This document shows, one piece after another, positions 24,893-48,640 of a stretch of 64,000 bases of DNA; positions within the stretch are counted from its first letter, which is position 1, and every line of letters starts with the position of its first letter. The stretch lies in contig LR746281.1 of NCBI GenBank assembly GCA_902729315.2, forward strand, positions 3,346,501 to 3,410,500, read 5' to 3'. Position numbers and translations under genes: made by a program. A model generated the notes under the pieces. The model did no database searches. It saw only the letters and a program-made list of their open reading frames with translations, and was not told where the DNA came from. Origin of the DNA: Spirodela intermedia (lineage: Eukaryota > Streptophyta > Magnoliopsida > Alismatales > Araceae).

Positions 24893-25510
24893 CTAGCGGG
24901 CCATCCCACCCGGAGCCGCCGGCGGGTGCAAGCTTGCAGCGTCGGAGAGATGGCCGTGCGGCAGCCGCGCGGCGTGCGCGCTCGGCGCCGTAGACGCCCC
25001 GCTGCGCGCCAACCGTGCGGCGTGTGGGCTCGGTACGGTAGACGGCCCGCTATGCGCCAGCCGCCACGCGGCGTTCAGGATCGGCACAGCAGACGGCCCG
25101 CTGCGCGGCAACCATGCAGCGTGTGGGCTCGGCACGGTAGAGGGCACGCTGTGCGCCAGCCGCCACGCGGCATGCGGGCTCGGCACGGTAGAGGGCCCGC
25201 TGTGCGCCAGCCGCCACGCGGCGTGTGGGCTTGGCGCTGTAGACGGCCTGCTGCGCGCCAACCACATCGCGTGTGGGCTCCGTTCTATAGACGGCCCGCT
25301 GTCCGCCAGCCGTGCAGAGGGCGGGCTTGCGATCGACGAGGGGCCGCTTGGCACCAATCTCCAAGGCTGTAGGTTCGGAACGGCGGGTGGTGCGGGGTGA
25401 AGTGTTGGCGGAGCAGAGTCACTCAGGGCGGCAGTCTCGTCGAGGTTTCCTAAGACAGAGCAGAGGAGCAGTGCCAGCAACAGACCCACCAGACCCTTCC
25501 CTTTCTCCAT
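24893..25510 (-). CDS. Possible secreted tandem-repeat protein with CLE-like motifs
   Basis: A 205-residue open frame. It starts with a good signal peptide (hydrophobic LVGLLLALLLCSVL at residues 7-20), then a proline-rich spacer. At residues 51-57 comes RLVPSGP, identical to the first seven residues of CLE9/CLE13-type peptide hormones. About seven 16-17 residue repeats follow, of form RLAHSGPSTVPSPHAAW (starting near residues 67, 84, 100, 117, 134, 150, 166). These keep R-L-x-x-S-G-P but have lost the N/D-P-x-H-H/N ending. CATAAAAGG on the minus strand about 55 bases upstream could be a TATA box. Against it: the repeats are a GC-rich DNA minisatellite whose other strand is open too, and the SCAMP gene ends only 475 bases upstream. 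I regard it as a plausible but unproven gene. Confidence 0.4.
   Translation of the reverse strand: MEKGKGLVGLLLALLLCSVLGNLDETAALSDSAPPTLHPAPPAVPNLQPWRLVPSGPSSIASPPSARLADSGPSIERSPHAMWLARSRPSTAPSPHAAWRLAHSGPSTVPSPHAAWRLAHSVPSTVPSPHAAWLPRSGPSAVPILNAAWRLAHSGPSTVPSPHAARLARSGASTAPSAHAARLPHGHLSDAASLHPPAAPGGMAR
24955..25365. repeat. GC-rich 48-51 bp minisatellite
   Basis: About eight imperfect units built round CGGCACGGTAGAGGGCCCGC, TGTGCGCCAGCCGCCACGCG and GCGTGTGGGCT. The period is a multiple of three, so reading frames on both strands stay open. It encodes the repeats of the candidate secreted protein. Confidence 0.85.
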
Positions 25511-35278: not shown

Positions 35279-38200
35279 TCAATCTTCCTCGGAGTTGTCG
35301 AAGGTGATCTTGGTAGATTTGGGCGCGTCGATCCCAATCTCCTTGAAGTGGGATCCATATAGCTTGGACTCCTGAAGGGAAATAAATAAATAAAGGTTAT
35401 GATATGTCCTTCAGAGGGGGAATGAGCCAATGGTGATCATCTGGGTTGGAACTGCGGCTGATGCCCATCAATCGGTAGAAAAATATATCCAAGGCACAGA
35501 TTTTCATGAAAATTAAGAACAAGATAATACCCATCAATCGTGTTTAATCTGTGGTTATGTGGATATTTGCAATTTGTTTGATGCTTCTCAAGTACTACGA
35601 AATCACTTGCTCCATTCTGAAAACATCCAGATTTGTGTCTAAACCTGTACTCAATCTGTGGCCGTGAGAATAATATTCGTAGCTCGCAGAAGCTTCATTT
35701 CTCACTTAAAATAGTAATTTAATTAAAAAAAGGTATAATTCACAGATTCTTCTCAATTAGGGACATCAATAATACCCATCATCCCTGCTATTTAGAAAAA
35801 TATTTCATAATGAAAGATATTTATAGCTTGCTGAAGCTTCATTTCACATTTAAAATAGTAATTTAATTCAAGAACATGTATAATTCACAGATTCGTTTCA
35901 ATTAGGGATATTAATATTACCCATCATCCCAACTATTTAGAAAAATATTTCATAATGAAACCACCAAACCCAAACATCTGGTCAACATTTCGGAAGAAGA
36001 AAAGCCTGAACATCCGAGGAACATACCTTCTTCTTGACATGAGTACCGAATTTTGTGAGCGCTTCAGGTACAATCTGCCCAGCTTCTCGGAGAACATTTA
36101 CAAGCTCTCCAGCGAGGCCCTATAATATTAATAGAAATTAAGATAAAAATAATGAAACCCTTAGATCTGCTTGGAACACACAAAAAAGGCTTGGAACATA
36201 CCTTATTTTCCCTCATGAAGAAAGTGTGAGCAACGCCCTTCTTGCCTGCACGACCTGTTCTCCCGATTCTGTGCACATAATCCTCTGTGGTGAGAGGAAA
36301 GCTATAGTTGATCACCACCTCCACATCAGGAATATCCAGCCCCCGAGATGCAACATCCGTGGCAATCTACAGCGAGAGAGAGAGAGAGAGAGAGAGATTA
36401 TATTCATTGCGATGCCACCCACTCAGAAGAACAGTTGGATTCACACTTTTCTCTCTCCAAGATATGAAGTGCAAGCAGCTGGGGTTGGGGTTTAGTGTTT
36501 ATCCCTCCCACAACTTTGTTTTCCCAATGTACAAGTCATACTGTGTGAAGATTAACGAACGAGTCCATGCAATCTAGAACACGGCTTACCATTAAAGGGC
36601 ATTTTCCATCCTTGAACAAGGAAAGAGCCTCTGTACGAGCATTCTGAGCCTTGTCGCCATGAACGGAAACGACCTTCCAGCCTCTTCAAAAGCAGGGCGA
36701 GCGAATCCGCACAAATCATTAATCACGAAACATTGCCTAACACTAGATACTACCCAACGGTAATGTAGATAGAAAATGAGAGGAGGATTCGCAAATTTTG
36801 AACATGAATGTAAGTGGCCGGTACCTCCTCTGAAGCATAGTTTCAACACGAGCTGCTTCCTTCTTGTACAACACAAAGACAAGCACTCTGTTGCTGTTCA
36901 AAGATTTTAAGGTAAAGAGTCACATGCATGAATGTGCAGGTAAACATTAATACCACAATTGTGGACAATTAACGGAAAATAATCAAATTCTGAAAAAAGA
37001 TGCTCACCAGATTACTGGCACTGTCCGGAAAAAAGGTACAACATCATACTATAATTGGAAGGGCAGTGTAAAATGGGAAAAAAGAGTCGCAGAATATTGG
37101 CATGAAATAAATATTTAAATGATCGGACAATCCATATTCCATAGTTTAGATGGGTTATAAAAGTTCAACAAGTTTGTAGGCAGATCAAGGGCATAGGAAT
37201 GCAAATGCAAATGGTCTTGGTCCATAACAAAGCTGTCTTAAATTTCTACCTGAGACTACAAATATTTTCATGAATGAATCCGAATTCAGCCGTACATTTT
37301 TGACTTTTGACGGAAATCGAACTTTAGATCAGGTTGACTTAAATAAATTTTCTTTCATCTTTTACCAATGTTAGGATCTCATATAGTATTTAAACATAAA
37401 TACCCTCCCGTACAGTGACAACTATGGGTCTAAAATACGTATACACAGGCAGTTAGTACGTGATCTAAGACAAATGGCTAGCTGATCGGCTTTGAAGAAA
37501 TCATGACCATGCTTCTGATTTCTACCTCTCCATTTCTGTCAATCAGAAGCTTCTAGAATATTATTAGAATTCAGCCATTCCCCTTAATTGCAAGGACGGG
37601 CAACAACGCAAGCTGCTATATTATCCGGAATATTGTTGATGTTTCATGCCAATAAATCAAACAGGGTTCCACCCATATTTCAGAAGGAAGATGTAAAATG
37701 GCATTGAACAAGAAGGGAGAAAAATTATATCAAAAGTAAGGCAAAACTGACTACCTTTTAGATGTATGGTATTTCTCAAGCAAGGAAACCAGACGCTTAT
37801 CACGTGATTGATCATCCAAAACCTGAGAAGGGGAACTTACATACAATCAGTTTTCCATCTTCAGATAAATAGAGAAAATAATAGCAACAAAATTATCGGG
37901 TCATATGCCACGGCATGCAATATACCTCAACTATCTGCATTACATCATGATTAGCAGCCAAGTCCTCCGATCCCACAACAACCTGAATTGAATCAATTAT
38001 TAGGAATGGACCAAGCTGTTAAAAAAAGGGGTTAAACCTCACGTTAAGAAGCATACTTTAACTGGATCCGGATCCATGAACTCCTGAGCTAGCTGGTGAA
38101 CAGCTAGAGGCCATGTTGCACTAAACATGACCATTTGGCGACCTGGGAAAGGAACATAATTTTACATATTAAACCCTTGCACATAGCTATCTGTTAAACC

Positions 38201-41200
38201 ATAAAACTTTTAACTTCCGTCACCAAATTTATCACATCGTAAAAAACCATCAATTTCATCTACGACTCCAAACTCCCAATCAGTAAGTCTCATTGAGAGA
38301 TATCTTGTTAATTGACCATAAAAGCATGTGCAAAAAAAGTGAAACATAAAATATATTTACACTGTTTCACTAAATTTGGTATGCTTAAATCAAAGTTCAA
38401 TTAATTTTTCAGCGACGTACTAACGAGAGTTAAATCAAATACACAACTGCCTTCTGATTTGTCTGCGTGAGTAGGAGACGAACAAGACACAACCCATAAA
38501 TAAGGATGTTTCCACAACCCAAAGTGCATTGGAAAGTTTGGGAAGAAGACAAGGATGGAGGATAAATTTGATGATAGTACAACAAGTGAAGGACGGGAAA
38601 ATATAAAAAAGAAGACTGGTACGTCGTACTACTGACATCCAAAGGGAAAACATTATTTTACTCAATTTTGCTCAAGAAACAAAAACAATCTGACATGAAA
38701 CTTGATCAACATCTTATTTGATAAAGGCAAAAGCTCTTGTTATTATAGTCAACTTCTTAGACTGCCAATAGAAATAACAACGAACTATTAGCTAATAGCC
38801 ATTCACCCTACTGGTTACTTAAGAGAACTAAACCATTTAGAAAGATATAAGTTACGTCAAACTAGACAATCTTGCAAAGAGCAAACATGGAGCATAACTT
38901 GTATAAAAGGAAAAGAAAGAAGTCACTAACTGGAACATGTTTGACTTAGGATAGACCGAACTTCTGGCTCGAATCCCATGTCAAGCATTCTGTCAGCTTC
39001 ATCAAGAACCTATAAATAAGTCCATGATCAATTTCATCAAGAAATCAAAAATTTCAAGAAAAGACAAATAACCAAGTTATTCAATCAAGCATTGTAAAGC
39101 AAAGCGTTGAAATGAGACAAGAAGAACAGAGTATTAAAAAAGAAATCTTCCTCCATTGAAGAAAGGAGGCGCATTGCTGAATACGTGACCAACAATGGCC
39201 AAATCTTTCAATAATTTGTATGAGTTTCCATTGCACAAAAGAGTTTTCTATCAAGGACTTTCGTCCTTGTATATCATTGGCAAAGATCTAAAGGCTCCAA
39301 CCAAAAAAAAATTGAAAAGAAAACTCTGGAAGAAGAAATAGGGAAACCACTGGGATTGCCTAGTACGCTCTCATCTTATTCCAGTTCTGTCTAGGACAAA
39401 ACCACAATTTCCTAACAACAAGAATGGCAGTAAGGCATCCTTCGGATCAGAATGGTTGCCCACAGGTGCACAATTTTCAGTTTCAAAAAGTAATAGAAAA
39501 AGTTCAAGTCGACATCAAACTTGCAATATGAATGAAATGTAACTGCAAGCTTCGAGTGAACACCAAGGCAAAGCACGATTACCTAGGGAATCTAGTCAAC
39601 TCAAAACAAATAATAGATACAAATCTCCACAATAATATAATAATACGAGCTTTCCACACAGTATTGTTTACCCTCCAAAAACCTTTTCTATACCGACCAG
39701 TTCCAGTTTCAAGAAAAATTATAGTTCCACATCAACGAAGTTATTATTGAAGAGGCAGTGATAGTCTTAGGAGACCAAGGGCAAAGTAGACTGCGGATGA
39801 AAAACGACAACAACAGCAGAGGACTTTTCCCTTGCCTGCCCTCAGCATCGTTCTTTTTAGTACATGTACTGCAAAGTATGCAAATTGATCACTATATAAT
39901 GTAAAAACAGCCAAAAATAATAAAAACAGTAAGTAACATTCAAACAAATTTGAAAGCTTGGATAAAAGACACAGTTCCAGTCTAGTGACCGGAAAATCGA
40001 GATCAAAACTACAGACCTCAAGTTCAATCCACCCATTATAATAACATTCTTCTAGACATTTTAACATCAAAGATAAGAAACATCCAACCAAGACAAGTTC
40101 ATAAGCATGAAATCATAACAAAAATCAGACGAACATTCACCGTTAAAAGTGTTAAAGTAAGATAAACCTTTTATCATGTTGCCACATTATACTCACCGCA
40201 AAAGAGACATCCTTGAGATTGCAAACCCCCATTTCGATTAAATCTTTCAAACGGCCAGGAGTCGCAATAACTATGTCCTGAAACGATAGAGAAAGATCAT
40301 CATGGAAAAATTAGACTACACCTTAAGAAAAAACTCTGGAACGAAAAAGGCAGTTCTATTTGTCTAAAGAGCTAAGAATCTCAAAAACTAAACTCCACTT
40401 CATACAAACAAACTTGCATGACAGTAGTAAATAAAAAGAAAAAAGGAGAGCAAACAAATGTGACAGACAATTCTCTTGGTTCAAAAGATCCACTGGCAGA
40501 AAGAGATGTCATTTTAGAGATGTTGACTGCAGAAAGTAACAAAGATAGGATACCTATAGATTCATTAAAAAAATCCACCGGCCACATTCAAATAAAAGCA
40601 CAACAATTTCGACGACAGCTAGGTAAAGTATACCTCAGTCCCTACTGAAGAAAACTGTTGCTTGAAGCTGTAATTCATAGTCAAACCTCATTGTATTCAT
40701 ATCCTTTTTTGTAAAAAGGTCTGAGAACCATATAAAGTTGTCCACTTCTCATTTAGTTTCCTTGGTTTTACACATCAACAAGGCTTTTCCTCGGGTTGAC
40801 AGACCTGTCAATCCTCCCTTTACAGGGGCTAGCTGATGATTCAGCTGTCCTCCCTCCCTCCCGCACACACCATCTCTCTGCACAATCCTCCCTGTTCCAC
40901 CAACCACTACTAACCTCCAAAGAAATTATATCAATTTATCAACATTAATACGGCCTTACAATCAAGGAAATAGAGCTTCAAGGTACAAAATTCTCCATAG
41001 GTTGACCTCCCCATCTAATTTAGAGATCCAGAGTAGTCTTTTGCACTAAAATCCCATGTTTCTAACTTTTAACAAGATATTTGAACGCTTTCTCATCTGA
41101 AATCCCATGCTTTTAACACTTCTACAAGTTATGATATCTGAAAGCCTATTGTAGATTAAATTGTGTAATCTGACTAGGATTTGAAGCTGATCGAACTGAT

Positions 41201-44200
41201 CTACTACTTACACAAGACCAAATTAAAGGTTTGGAGTCTTTCTTCTTTCACTGTGTTTGAGTGGACACAAGCCTTGCATCTAGGGAAGGGTGCTATCATC
41301 TTATTATAGAGTGTCCAAACAATTCCTCTAATCTCATACATTTCTGGAGTTACTGCATTAATTGGTAAGTTTGAAAAGTTTTGTATAAGCTGTCATTTCT
41401 CCAATAGTAAAAGTTAATTACTTTTACTATTCCTTTGCTGCCTCAAAAATAACATCGGATGTTCCTCTTCACAAGAGAATTGGCAGATGGCATACTTTAA
41501 ACTTGATATAAAGTGGCAGTACCCAGGGCAAATAGATGAGTTTTTCTACTGCCAAGGTTCAACAGTCTCTAGAGAGAAAAGAACATGCAAATTTAGAAGG
41601 GAACATGAAGATGCAGTCAAGATTTCAGGCCAGGCTTGTGACGAGATCACAAAGCGTGCAAGATGTCGGTGTGACGAGGAAGGATCATTTTGGAGATAAC
41701 TGCACTTTTAATATGACCTACGCCATGTTGGGATAGGACAAAGTTCTCTTTTCGTAATCAATTATTAATGGTACTATTCACTTCGCAAAAAGTTATACAG
41801 AAGACTGGGCTGTATCCTTAAATGGAATCATTAACTAGCTCAGAAAAATTGATCTCATTTCCAGGAAAAGAGGACGATCTAAACCACCGCTTTCACTGAT
41901 AGAGCCACACGGTGGAGCACTTTAATTCTATTAAATTAAAAGAAACAATAATATACTCAGGGAGACACAAGAAAGCAGAAAAAAACTATCCACACTTTAG
42001 CAGTCCAGAAATAAACGTCAAATAGCAATAAATACAGTGAAATGAGCACAGGATCCACCAGCTTCCATAGACAAATGCTGCTTCTTTTTCCCCAAGGAGA
42101 AGAAACTGAGCACATAGGAACAAAGGATGAGCATCCGAAAAAATAAACAAAGCATGTGGCATCCCACACCAAAATAGTTTACATACATTTCTTTCTGGGG
42201 ACAAGAATACTCACGCTCCATGCAGGACGTTTCTCAGTGATAATTTAGTTTTACACAAGATAGACAGCACAATAGATTTCATTTTGTCAAATATTAAAAG
42301 TGAATGGAACATATTTAAGATACGTAGTTATCGAGCATGAAAGTGAGACATTTCACCTGGCATCTACCTATTTTAATGAATAGGACTCTAATAAAGCCTC
42401 ATCAAAATTCAAAATCTTACCACTCCAGACTTCAGTGAGGAAATTTGTGGTCCTTTGGAAGTCCCTCCATATACGCAAACAGATTTCACACCACAAGAAT
42501 TACCAGCATCACATAGAACATCAGCAATCTGCCATCAAATTGCAAGACGAAGATATAAAAGTGTTATGAAGCTAACAGAATAACAGAGAGTACAATTTTA
42601 TTCTGTAAGTGAGTAAATAAATTTGCAATTTCATTAGTTATCAGGTTTAGTAATGTCTTGGGTCAGCAAAGACGGCATTAACACCTAAGTCAGAAAGTTG
42701 AAAAGAAAGGTCTTCACTACACGTGATAAAGCAGTACACTTTTTCTCTTTTTAGTGAATAGATAAATTCACGATTTCACTAACTATCTGGTCCTAGTTTA
42801 GGATCTTTTCACCCATAAAATAGTAAGCACGCAAAGCTAGCATAAGTATCCAAATCAACTAGTTAAAAGGAAGAATTTTGCAGTTCATCACTTGATATTG
42901 TAGTTAATATGGGCATGCTTCTCTCATTTGAAGTTGAGCAGTTGGTCTCAACAATCATTACACGATCCATGGATAGGCAAAGGCCTTCAACGAGCTTAAT
43001 ATGGACTTGTATACTAAGTCTATCCTATGTTCTGTTTCCGTGGAAAAGCAGGTTCAAGTCATTATCCGACTAAATAAACTGCGAAAATCAATAAACGATT
43101 TTCTGAGCGTCTCCCATGCAACCAATCGCCCTGAGTATAAGAAAACGAAGCATGTGATGTTGAATATCTCTGCAAGAGATATCCACAATGCCTTAAAATT
43201 TCATACATCTTCTGAGAAATCAGCTCAGAAGTACAATCTGAGATATTGAACACATCATCCACATGCTTAATAGCACCACGCGCATTGCAAAATGTAAGAC
43301 TTTTTGTAGGAATCTATTTTCAAAACTACAACATTATTATCCTTGGTGAGTCCCTAAATTAAAGCCATCAAATTGTTCATGTCATCTCAAACTTCTTTCT
43401 TAATTCACATTCAAATAAGAAGCTAGCTCTTTCTACCCATCAAAAAAATATCCAAATTTCTAACGTCAAATTTCATGTATTTCATATTTTTAAGGAGAAA
43501 GATGATGGCTCTTAGTAAGAAGATAAGTATACTGAAAACTTCAGTTATATGTTTCTCACTGCCAAAAAGATGCCAACCATGAAGCAAAATTCTAAAAGTA
43601 CCCACCAAAACAATAGCAAAGCCAAAAAAAAATAAAGGAGATAAAAATCGAATATCTGGCATTTCCCTTGAAATCAATTATGACAATGCAGTGAATGAGT
43701 ACGAAAATAAACTTCTAATAAACTACAACACATTGGACATTGATGAATTAAAATGTCTTTGCCTACTTCTATGAGAAAAGTATACATATTGGAAATTGAG
43801 AAAGCCCACATAAATACTTCGCATAAGAATTCTGCACAGAAAACTCGATTAACTTGTCAAATCCAGGGATGAGAAATAGAAATTCACCCCACAGTGTGCA
43901 TAACAAAAATTCAGCCCTCAATATGTTTGCAATTCCACGATTTTAATGATTCATCTATTCACATCATTATCTATTTAAAACAGTCCCATAATACGAGTAA
44001 CAGAAGAAATAAACAAGGCTACAAAAAATCAAACTAGTTGAGAGGATAATAGAGCCAAAGATGTGATATTTCGAACCAGAATGACAAGCAAAAATCATTC
44101 CGCACAGACATGAGGGATCTCTTGATTAGAGAATCTGAGGCCATCATTTCCCAAAAGATAAAAACAATGTCTTGTATAAAATGTTTTCAACATCCTCGGA

Positions 44201-47200
44201 GGAATCAATTAATGTGATAATTATTCTGACAAGAGATATGTGAGGACATGTCATTTGGGATCAGACTGACATGCAAAACTCATTCAGCACAAATCAGGGT
44301 GATTCCTTCATTCAAAAATGAGATCTAATCATTTCCCAAATGATTAAAAGAGAATGTATGGAATAAAAACAGAGTTTATCATACTGAGACAGGGGATTGA
44401 GTAATCCAATAGTTCTTCAGAGAAAACGGGTGGCCATTTGCGAACAGAATGGCCAGCATAACTCATTCAACACAGATTAAGATGATCTCTTGATTCAAAC
44501 ATGTGATATCAGCATTATCCTAATAATTTAAGAAGGATATCCCGAACAACACATTTCATCAAGCTGAGACACGGGAAAAAGTAATCCGATAATTCTTCAG
44601 CGAAAAGTGTGCTTATTTGGGATCAGACTGACGTGCAAAATTCATTCAGCACAGATCTAGATGATCTCTTGATTCAACTATGTAATCCCATCATTTCCCA
44701 TATGATACAACAATGATATCATGAACAAAAAAAGATGTTCTCACATTTGGGGGCAACTAGCATGGAGAAAGGGAGAGCGAGAGAAATAGGTATCTGGAAT
44801 CAGACTGACGTGTAAAAATCGGTCATTACAGATCTGGATGATATCTTGATTCAAAGATGTGATTCCATGTTTTCTCAAATGATTCAAAAAGGATATCTGG
44901 AATGAGAACATATATCATTACATTTGAGAGACGGTTAATTGATATGGTGATTATTGGGATCAGACTGAGTGAAAACTCATTAAGCACAGATTAAAGTGAT
45001 GTCTTGATTGAATATGAGATATCATCATTTAACAAATGATTCAAGGACTTCTCAACTAAAAAGCATATTTCATCAAACTACGAAGGGAATTATTCCTCGT
45101 ATCAATTCTTCAGGACAAACAGGTGGGTATTTGGGATCAGACTGACGTGCAAAATTCATTCAGCACAGATCTGAATGATCTCCTGAATCAAATACGTGAT
45201 CTCATCATTTCCCAAATGATACGACAATGATATCTTGAACAAAAACAATTCTCGGAATTCCCAGGTATCAACTTATCCGTGAACTCTCAAGAGAATGGGA
45301 GAGCGAGATAAATGGGTATCTGGGATCAGACTGACGTGCAAATTTGTTCAACACAGATCTGAGTAATCTCCTGATACAAAAATGAGATTTCATCACTTCC
45401 CAAATGATACAAGAATGAAACCTCAGCGACTAATTCTCATGTTAATTCTTCAGAAAAAAAGGACATTGAGACTAGTAGGTACTTGGGATCAGACTGACGT
45501 GCAAAAATCATTCAGCACGGATTTGGGTGATCTCTTGATTCAAATCTGTGATATCATCATCTCCCAAGGGAAACAAGAGGGTTTTCAAATGATACAAGAA
45601 GAAAACCCGGAACAAAAAACATATTTCATCCCCAGTGATACTGGGATTAATTTTCATGTTATTTCTTCAGAGAAAAAGGACATTGAGACTAGTGAGTATT
45701 TGGGATCAGACTGACGTGCAAAAATCATTCAGCACAGATATAGGTGTTCTCTTGATTCTAATCTGTGATATCATCATTTCCCAAGTGATACAAGAGAGTT
45801 ATCAAATGACAAGAAGATTGCATAAAATGGAGACAGATGATAAAAAAATGCACCAATTTTGGGAAGAAAGAGTGTGAGACAGGTAGTACTTCGGGTCAAA
45901 CGGATGTGCAAAAAACATTCGACATAGATACAAGGAATCTCCATATGTAAACATCGGACACAGTTTCCCTGGTGATACATCAAGGGTTCTCATAGAAAAA
46001 TAGATTTCCTCGACGTAAAAAAGCGTTAGTTAATGCACAAGTTCTTACAACTTTTCCGGCAAGTAGTCTTGTAGAATCTAATAATGAGATAATTAGTTAA
46101 AAAGGTAAAAAAAGTAAGCATCGTGATTACAGAGAAGGTCAATTGCGAAAAACATGACCAGTGAAATAGTAATTGGGGTGATTGGTATCCCATGCTATGA
46201 AATATGAAACACCGAATCCGACACTGAAATTAGTGGGCATTAGGCCTGGAAATTAGCTGTCCTACCCAATGGAAACTGACATTTTCGTGAATCAGCCAAA
46301 AGACCACGGCATGCAAATTGGACAAGCACTAGTTGATTAAAAAAAAAAGGCAAGAATAAATAGTATAATAGAATTTAGAATAGTATCTACCTGTTGAGCT
46401 AACTCCCTGGTGGGTGATAGCACAAGACACCGAGGGACCGGTTTCTTCAGCTTTCCGGCCTCTTTCTTCTTCAATATATGCATAAGCGCAGGGACACCAA
46501 ACGCCAGAGTTTTGCCTTAAGAAAAACAGCTGTCGATTATTTCATCAACTAGACGCACATAAAAAACAGTAGTGCAGGAAAAATAAAGAATGGGAACGTA
46601 AAAACGAGCATGATGGGCAATATGGCACAAAAACCTCACCTGATCCAGTAGCAGCAATACCCACAAAATCCCGTCCGTCCAAGAGGAAAGGCCAAGCATT
46701 CGACTGGATCGGGGATGGCTTGCTAAAGTTCTTACAGCACTCCATCACGTTGGCGGGAAGGCCAGCGTCAGAGAATGTCTTCAGGGCAGCATACTTGGAA
46801 TCCGTCCAATTCTTCCCGGAGACGGAAACACCCATCGCTCCCACCGCCTCCTCCCTAACCCCGATCCCTTGTTCTATTCCCTTAGCCACATTATTCCCCT
46901 CGTCCAACTTCTTCCTCTTCTTCCTACTCGCGCATCCATCGTCTATGCCCCCTATTTCTCCTTCTCCAGTTTTCTCCCCCTCAGTTTTCTTCTTCTTCTT
47001 CCTCTTGCTCTTCCTGTTCTCATCATGGGGCCTCCCGTTGCTCTCGGGCGCCTTCACTTCCGCGGGAAAGATCTCCTCACTCCTCTTCTCATCCCTCTTC
47101 TTTTTCTTCTTCTCTCGATTCTCCAAACTGCCGTTGCTGTGGGGGGCCTCCATTATCTCCGGACCTGCGACCTCCTCTCCGTAGCCGGCGAGCTTCCTGC

Positions 47201-47204
47201 CCAT
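35279..47204 (-). CDS. RH5: DEAD-box ATP-dependent RNA helicase, RH5/Dbp3 type, 13 exons
   Basis: Nucleolar-type ribosome-biogenesis helicase, 560 residues. Exons (high to low): 47204-46640, 46515-46391, 42528-42421, 40277-40197, 39009-38931, 38142-38057, 37982-37926, 37822-37755, 36893-36825, 36683-36590, 36366-36202, 36119-36027, 35371-35279; phases close exactly. The first 125 residues are charged, with lysine runs ([20 protein letters not shown]) like yeast Dbp3 and Arabidopsis RH5/STRS1. The core carries the Q motif (FSKPSPIQ, about 160), ATGSGKT (about 184), PTRELA (about 224), TPGR (about 272), DEAD (296), SAT (about 328), ASRGLD (about 450) and HRIGRTGR (about 475). The C-terminus [12 protein letters not shown] is an RH5 hallmark. 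A telo-box lies upstream. Intron 2 (42529-46390) carries the snoRNA-like array. Assignment to RH5 rather than another paralogue is from remembered similarity. Confidence 0.93.
36373..36397. repeat. (GA)n microsatellite beside helicase exon 11
   Basis: GA on the plus strand, thus a CT run in the pre-mRNA immediately before the acceptor of exon 11 at 36366. It very likely acts as that acceptor's polypyrimidine tract. Confidence 0.85.
44254..44340 (-). ncRNA. Box C/D snoRNA-like copy 2 (box C altered)
   Basis: On the minus strand the 7-base stem TTTGGGA pairs with TCCCAAA. Box D is CTGA (44261-44264 complement). Box C reads ATGATTA, one base off consensus. The antisense element before box D is TTTTGCATGTCAGT, with one change (C to T) relative to the intact copies. 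Confidence 0.55.
44616..44700 (-). ncRNA. Box C/D snoRNA-like copy 4 (box C altered)
   Basis: Box D is CTGA and the element TTTGCACGTCAGT is intact. Box C is ATGATGG (44688-44694 complement), one base off. The terminal stem is shortened to about six pairs. Confidence 0.55.
44953..45036 (-). ncRNA. Box C/D snoRNA-like copy 6 (guide altered)
   Basis: Box C is a perfect ATGATGA (45022-45028 complement) and box D a perfect CTGA (44960-44963 complement). The antisense element has lost bases (TTTTCACTCAGT) and the outer stem is weak. It may not guide the same site. Confidence 0.45.
45130..45216 (-). ncRNA. Box C/D snoRNA candidate, copy 7 (intact)
   Basis: Minus strand: stem TTTGGGA, box C ATGATGA (45202-45208 complement), a C'-like TGAATGA, antisense element TTTGCACGTCAGT (45141-45153 complement), box D CTGA (45137-45140 complement) and closing stem TCCCAAA. 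At 87 nt the size is normal for plant C/D snoRNAs. It lies on the sense strand of the host intron, as expected for release from the spliced lariat or a polycistronic precursor. Confidence 0.8.
45319..45404 (-). ncRNA. Box C/D snoRNA candidate, copy 8 (intact, longest guide match)
   Basis: Box C is GTGATGA (45390-45396 complement, a valid R-U-G-A-U-G-A) and box D is CTGA (45326-45329 complement). The stem is TTGGGA-like with one mismatch. The antisense element ATTTGCACGTCAGT (45330-45343 complement) extends the recalled 25S rRNA match to 14 bases. An internal D'-like CTGA is replaced by TTGA here. Confidence 0.78.
45482..45568 (-). ncRNA. Box C/D snoRNA candidate, copy 9 (intact, compensated stem)
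   Basis: Box C is ATGATGA (45554-45560 complement) and box D is CTGA (45489-45492 complement), with an intact TTTGCACGTCAGT element. The terminal stem reads CTTGGGA/TCCCAAG instead of TTTGGGA/TCCCAAA, so both members of the outermost pair have changed together. That supports selection on RNA structure. Confidence 0.82.
45699..45785 (-). ncRNA. Box C/D snoRNA candidate, copy 10 (intact)
   Basis: Box C is ATGATGA (45771-45777 complement) and box D is CTGA (45706-45709 complement). The element TTTGCACGTCAGT is intact (45710-45722 complement) and the terminal stem has six pairs plus one mismatch. The core is nearly identical to copy 9. Confidence 0.8.
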
Positions 47205-47499: not shown

Positions 47500-48640
47500 T
47501 GGTTGAACAAGATAGGCTCAAGGGAAGGTGCTTAAGAGACCCCTTAAGCACAATGTTGCATGATTAGGCATGGTTTAGGTGACATCATCACGACATAGTA
47601 CAATGTCTGCATGGTGCAACACCTCCTAGTAAGGCAGATGACAGTGCTAGTTCTTTTCTTAATGAGGTTCAAGAGAGAGTTCCTCATGATTCCAGAGATG
47701 TCTCGCACTATGTGCTATGGCAATATCATATTATTAGTGGTGCCATCATAACACAGTGTAGTGTCAGAGACCATGTTAATCCTTAACAAAGAGTTCCTCA
47801 TGATTTCAGAGACCTTTGACACTATGTGGTATGGCAAAGCATATTAAAAAGGTGGTGTCATCACAACATAATGCAATGTTAGAGATCATGCTAATCCTCG
47901 ACAAGGTTCAAGAGAGAGTTACTCATGATTTCAAAGACGTCTTACACTATGTGGCATGTCAAAAGCACATTATTGGTGGTGCCATCATAACATAATGCAA
48001 TGTTAGAGGCCATGTTAATTCTCAACAAGGTTTAAGAGAGGGTTCCTCATGATTTCAAGGACCTACAACTCTATGTGACATAGCAAAAGCACATTATTTG
48101 TGGTGCCATCGCAACATAATGCAATGTTTGAGACCATGTTAATCTTCAACAAGGTTCAAGAGAAGGTTTCTCATGATTTCATCAAGGTTTAAGAGAAGGT
48201 TCCTCATGATTTCAAAGACCTCTGACACTATGTGGCATTGCCAAAGCACATTATTGATGGTGCTATCACAGCATAATGTAGTGTCAAACACCATGTTAAT
48301 CCTCAATAAGGTTAAAGAGGGTTCATCATGATATTAGAGACCTCTAACACTATCTACCATGACAAAAGCACATTATTGATGGTGCCATCACAACATAATG
48401 CAGTGTTAGAGCCCATTCTAATCTTCAACAAGGTTCAAGAGAAGGTTTCTCATGATTTAAGAGACCTCTGATACTATGTGGCAGGGCAAAAACACATTAT
48501 TGGTGGTGTCATCACAACACAATCTAGTGTCAAAGACCATGCTAATCTTAAACAAGGTTCAAGAGAGGGTTCCTCATAACTTCATAGACTTTTGGTATGA
48601 GCAGCATGATGAGGCACATTGCCAGCGGCACTAACACAAC
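47500..48640. repeat. 122-bp tandem satellite, about eight units
   Basis: The block ACATTATTGGTGGTGCCATC recurs near 47729, 47840, 47967, 48089, 48247, 48369, 48492 and 48614, mostly 122 bases apart. Other landmarks in each unit are GACCATGTTAATCCTCAACA, AGGTTCAAGAGAGGGTTCCT, CATGATTTCA and CACTATGTGGCAT. One unit carries a 36-base internal duplication near 48150-48200. The flanks (47545-47630 and 48855-48930) share a different block (GCATGGTGCAACAC-like), suggesting a larger duplicated frame. No open reading frame is kept. Confidence 0.88.

Follow-up and report, generated by a model that had tools for sequence, protein, structure and literature searches.

An array of eleven snoZ122-like box C/D snoRNA copies, partly decayed, in a helicase intron of Spirodela intermedia

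Introduction

One intron of a DEAD-box helicase gene in the duckweed Spirodela intermedia carries a series of tandem units that resemble box C/D snoRNA genes. This arrangement raises the questions of whether the units are copies of a single known snoRNA, which RNA they might modify, and whether the copies are maintained by selection. RNAs of this type are already known, as are snoRNA clusters within introns and plant loci in which a single snoRNA occurs in several clustered copies; the unusual part of this locus is the size of its array. We examined it within the surrounding stretch of 64,000 nucleotides, which we call the window.

Identification of a homotypic snoRNA array

The original prediction described a homotypic cluster of about eleven snoRNA-like units. 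We find a tandem, head-to-tail array of 11 units on the minus strand (positions 44069-45971), each with a core of 83-87 nt. The units start at 44069, 44254, 44437, 44616, 44793, 44953, 45130, 45319, 45482, 45699 and 45889, and the spacing measured from these starts (160-217 bases) is the range originally given. A covariance model of the array was built from six copies, all of which are among the 11 that it then finds. When both strands of the 64-kb window were searched up to E 1, this model returned 11 matches (E 1.2e-26 to 0.0019) and none outside the array.

The Rfam check that had been proposed for the minus strand names the family as snoZ122 (RF00343). Six of the 11 copies reach 53.8-60.8 bits (E 7e-7 to 2.2e-5) and clear the gathering cut-off of 38 bits, two on the same strand fall below it (31.5 bits for c05 and 26.3 bits for c06), and three gave no RF00343 match up to E 1 in the Rfam scan of the window. 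Those six match the family over its full length, with boxes, terminal stem and guide block as in the consensus. Against the whole genome, RF00343 gave seven matches up to E 1, all inside the array. Because only 50 of the 84,647 first-look candidates were scored in that search, further snoZ122 copies elsewhere in the genome are not strictly excluded. The copies are as follows, with scores from RF00343 (Rfam) or from our own covariance model:

c01, 44069..44155, minus strand: decayed, with ATGATGG for box C, CTGG for box D and a disrupted guide; 6/7 stem pairs; own model 50.2 bits
c02, 44254..44340, minus strand: stem and box D complete; ATGATTA for box C; a single G-U among the guide pairs; Rfam 53.9 bits
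c03, 44437..44523, minus strand: decayed, with ATGCTGA for box C and CTGT for box D; stem and guide disrupted; own model 37.7 bits
c04, 44616..44702, minus strand: box D and guide complete; ATGATGG for box C; a single mismatch in the stem; Rfam 53.8 bits
c05, 44793..44879, minus strand: decayed, with AACATGG for box C and a single mismatch each in guide and stem; Rfam 31.5 bits, under the cut-off
c06, 44953..45036, minus strand: decayed; both boxes retained, 2 nt deleted from the guide, 4/7 stem pairs; Rfam 26.3 bits, under the cut-off
c07, 45130..45216, minus strand: every element intact; Rfam 60.8 bits
c08, 45319..45404, minus strand: every element intact, one U-G in stem; 14-nt guide pairing; 86 nt; Rfam 60.2 bits
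c09, 45482..45568, minus strand: every element intact; C-G replaces U-A as the outer pair of the stem; Rfam 57.9 bits
c10, 45699..45785, minus strand: both boxes intact; guide of 13 nt; C x A at the outer end of the stem; Rfam 58.7 bits, own model 103.8 bits
c11, 45889..45971, minus strand: most decayed; nearest the 5' end of the intron; own model 22.3 bits, E 0.0019

Box C (RUGAUGA) and box D (CUGA) are both exact in five of the 11 copies (c06 to c10), and box D is exact in eight. The terminal stem has all 7/7 pairs in c02, c07, c08 (one of them U-G) and c09, has 6/7 in c01, c04, c05 and c10, and is poor in c06 (4/7), c03 (3/7) and c11 (2/7). Copies c07 to c10 combine RTGATGA and CTGA with at least 6/7 stem pairs and 13-14 uninterrupted guide pairs. 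In two further copies, c02 and c04, box D and all 13 guide pairs persist, and box C has a single change. Both box C and the guide are damaged in c01, c03, c05 and c11, as is box D in c01, c03 and c11.

These details refine several earlier statements. Four copies (45130, 45319, 45482 and 45699) had been called fully intact, and their boxes and stems bear this out, except that the copy at 45699 has one C x A stem mismatch. A core of 87 nt holds for most copies, but the copy at 45319 has 86 nt, and c06 and c11 are shorter. It had also been stated that all of the roughly eleven units carry the boxes and stem, which is too generous: four copies, or six at most, look functional, whereas five have damaged boxes, stem or guide.

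On the minus strand, the sequence ATCA lies directly 5' of the core in seven of the 11 units (c02, c04 to c08, and c10). Copy c11 has ATCAC just 5' of its core, and an insertion has shifted ATCA away from the core in c09. Judging by sequence, ATCA and the first bases of the core could form pairs with box C (ATCATTT...AAATGAT); it may be an element for processing or folding that is not part of the mature RNA.

The array lies within intron 2 of its host gene

The host is a gene for an RH5-type DEAD-box helicase on the minus strand, and its exons flank the array on the array's own strand. The following host features were read from the window:

46640..47204, minus strand: exon 1, coding portion (MGRKLAGYG...GSG), from a putative start codon
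46391..46515, minus strand: exon 2, ending ...PTRELAQQ
42529..46390, minus strand: intron 2, 3862 nt (CAG/GTAGAT ... GGCAG/ATTGCT), containing the whole array
42421..42528, minus strand: exon 3 (IADVLCDAG...KSGV); 3' end provisional
35282..40277, minus strand: other helicase exons, with DEAD, SAT and HRIGRTGR motifs; boundaries approximate

The junctions on either side of the array read CAACAG/GTAGAT for exon 2 (46391/46390) and GGCAG/ATTGCT for exon 3 (42529/42528), and exons 1-3 join into one open frame. The array was thus correctly placed, on the host sense strand, in a DEAD-box helicase intron: the intron is of the GT-AG type (46390-42529), and all 11 copies are on the minus strand. Exon sequence likewise confirms the RH5-type assignment of the host, whose relatives carry the source name "RNA helicase 5".

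Conservation is concentrated in the boxes and guide

Conservation among copies was computed as pairwise identity over ungapped cells. The intact class (c07 to c10) was chosen by boxes and stem, and only the comparison of the guide is independent of that choice and thus a fair test of constraint. Among these four copies, the 13-nt guide (78/78) and box D (24/24) are 100% identical and box C has 39/42 identical cells, compared to 173/228 (76%) on the D' side and 310/529 (59%) in the spacers, where 115 gapped cells were set aside. The corresponding counts for the five decayed copies are 77/122 for the guide, 29/40 for box D, 41/66 for box C, 244/368 for the D' side and 415/813 for the spacers (190 gapped cells set aside).

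Identities over ungapped columns give the same picture. For the intact four, 38 functional columns average 0.947 against 0.612 for 73 spacer columns (permutation p 0.00005), and functional columns also exceed those of the D' side (permutation p 0.0009). For the decayed five, functional columns reach 0.609 against 0.546 for spacers (p 0.16), and the comparison with the D' side gives p 0.86. When all eleven copies are used, functional columns, at 0.774, exceed the spacers at 0.577 (p 0.00015), but their excess over the D' side at 0.716 is not clear (p 0.10). Guide conservation follows that of the boxes. The original prediction that the core is conserved while the spacers drift therefore agrees with the intact copies, and the equal mutation rate in boxes and spacers that had been named as evidence against it is not seen between the intact copies, where boxes and guide are far more conserved. 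For the terminal stem, a comparison with 500 shuffles revealed no convincing covariation; the score was reached by 34 of them and the number of paired cells by 108.

Identity across whole units is 82% for c04-c07 and 82% for c08-c09, 59-74% for the other pairs among c01 to c10, and 49-54% for pairs with c11. A tree of the units supports the same two close pairs (0.98 for c04/c07 and 0.93 for c08/c09). These identities and the tree point to repeated duplication. Judging from shifted self-matches, some of this duplication probably proceeded in blocks of more than one unit.

A predicted target of the guide at a known methylation site in LSU rRNA

The box D guide UUUGCACGUCAGU is complementary to the LSU rRNA segment ACUGACGUGCAAA. 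Six of the 11 copies form 13-14 uninterrupted pairs with this segment (one of them with a G-U pair), whose first paired base is assumed; a box C/D snoRNA is expected to have at least 10 nt antisense to rRNA immediately upstream of box D or D'. The segment used for pairing was composed from published primer sequences and this one assumed base. We take the target base opposite guide base U-1 to be A.

The complement of the guide core has been printed as an LSU rDNA reverse primer for a green alga, ACGAACGATTTGCACGTCAG (as given in PMC11676334), and as an LSU rDNA primer for mites, TTCTGACGTGCAAATCGAT (as given in PMC7222323). The mite primer has T at the position opposite guide base U-1 (PMC7222323). 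The relevant entries of PMC8053127 assign Arabidopsis 25S A885 to SnoR72Y and G917 to U80, and the SnoR72Y/snR72 site is numbered Am883/Am874 in PMC3511168. A passage of PMC2780460 describes Neurospora CD5, listed as a homologue of snR72/snoR72Y, as guiding its own site from box D.

Elsewhere in the genome, we found a U80/snR60-like box C/D snoRNA (locus L012, 1501-1596; RF00309, 63.9 bits) with the box D guide TCTTTCGCTCCTAT. If the plant 25S sequence is as we assume, the D+5 targets of snoZ122 and of this U80-like RNA lie 32 nt apart by hand count, which is identical to the distance from A885 to G917. Guide sequence and site spacing agree with the SnoR72Y/snR72 site, in a 25S context that is partly assumed. 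By the D+5 rule, the guide of the array should direct 2'-O-methylation of the equivalent of Arabidopsis 25S Am885, and the array guide is predicted to address the same LSU adenosine as Arabidopsis SnoR72Y and yeast snR72. A pattern search of the genome assembly for an 18-mer and a 14-mer of the presumed conserved target found neither, which suggests that the rDNA is unassembled or that this stretch differs here. The latter would count against the predicted target.

A proposed function and its alternatives

The explanation that we favor, with a probability of about 0.85, is that intron 2 of the Spirodela RH5-type helicase gene contains a polycistronic, homotypic snoZ122 array that would serve as a guide for rRNA methylation and has partly decayed. 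By analogy with other box C/D snoRNAs, we infer that Pol II would transcribe the array as part of the host pre-mRNA, that every k-turn, closed by its 7-bp stem, would be bound by C/D proteins, and that nucleases would cut RNAs of about 87 nt out of the intron. The antisense element at box D, 5'-UUUGCACGUCAGU-CUGA, would then pair with LSU rRNA 5'-ACUGACGUGCAAA, and fibrillarin would methylate the 2'-OH of the A opposite the fifth guide base upstream of box D. The array presumably expanded through tandem duplications of one or several units at a time, with selection on guide and boxes holding four to six copies while the others decayed.

Decay of five of the 11 copies is also what one would see if only one or two copies make RNA and the rest are a neutral tandem repeat without a dosage role, the intact copies simply being younger. 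The close pairs c04/c07 and c08/c09 fit this explanation as well, and therefore some of the conservation reflects recent duplication. Recency alone, however, would have spared the spacers too, and these are only 59% identical in the intact copies in which guide and box D do not vary. We consider this neutral explanation a serious one, albeit unlikely. Gene conversion confined to the 87-nt core is a possible source of the core identity. That the copies have instead diverged through the D' side into guides for different targets deserves very little credence: the D' side does vary among the intact four, and a C'-like TGAATGA is found in six of the 11 copies, but the Rfam consensus shows its D' side mostly in lower case (weakly conserved), and the most conserved part of the copies is the box D guide.

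The location of the array might matter in a different way, if it acted in cis on splicing of the host or retention of the intron, instead of or besides directing rRNA methylation. Cis roles of intronic snoRNAs are a subject of the review PMC11028025, as far as its cited part extends, and some sources name relatives of the host DBP3 rather than "RNA helicase 5". Yeast Dbp3 has been proposed to help snoRNA recycling; without it, 13 snoRNAs listed in the cited section, including snR60 and not snR72, accumulate on pre-ribosomes, whereas snR72 accumulates upon depletion of Prp43, to which its release is tied (PMC9196750). Moreover, conservation peaks in the guide complementary to rRNA, and we regard a cis role as quite improbable. 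Because snR72 is tied to Prp43 and is absent from the Dbp3 list, a functional link of the array to the host helicase is suggestive at best. The Dbp3 label of the host also rests on names only, since the best solved structures by sequence, with the public protein P0002 as the query, are DDX17 and Dbp2. We find it improbable that this is a dosage-amplified array in which four to six active 25S-guide copies reside in the gene for a possible Dbp3-type snoRNP-release helicase, coupling the output of the guide to that of a snoRNP-recycling factor. Under this improbable reading, one copy might also be changing its guide: c06 has both boxes and an altered guide, although its stem is broken.

Relation to known snoRNA arrays

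The favored explanation, an rRNA-guiding snoZ122 array, goes beyond the original prediction by naming a catalogued family, by matching the guide to the LSU site of SnoR72Y/snR72, and by recognizing that about half of the copies have decayed. Set against the Rfam family snoZ122, the array is distinguished by eleven tandem copies in one intron, two of them below the cut-off and three without a listed match up to E 1. Its presumed Arabidopsis counterpart, snoR72Y, has been hypothesized to be a recent innovation (passage in PMC5122169).

Plant snoRNAs are usually in intergenic clusters, according to the cited part of the review PMC11028025. U14 occurs in plant clusters transcribed as polycistronic units (passage in PMC7464842), and an intronic snoRNA gene cluster was described first for rice and then for Drosophila (passage in PMC2780460). 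These plant polycistronic clusters likewise have several snoRNAs per transcript. The mammalian SNORD113/114 and SNORD115/116 loci are likewise large tandem arrays of C/D snoRNA families (PMC11028025, same part). Those are imprinted eutherian arrays, whereas the duckweed array is a predicted rRNA guide within one intron of a protein-coding host. Among the literature matches listed, whose coverage is partial, we did not find an eleven-copy homotypic array in one intron.

The public host protein and neighboring repeats

The Spirodela intermedia protein P0002 aligns with the window in 11 stretches, six at 100% identity and the others at 63-96%; some of the lower-identity stretches extend beyond exon ends. 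By this match the window belongs within the duckweed genus Spirodela (Araceae, Alismatales) or close to it. Compared to the exons of the window, P0002 continues through the donor site of exon 1 and is missing GKTLAFG, and it appears to be mis-spliced at the junction of exons 1 and 2 (window positions 46391-46640).

Two tandem repeats also occur in the window. A 124-base repeat array with 80-84% matches is located just upstream of the helicase gene (47790-48577), and the tandem repeat at positions 24964-25312 is rich in G+C, its periods being 51, 99 and 150 bases.
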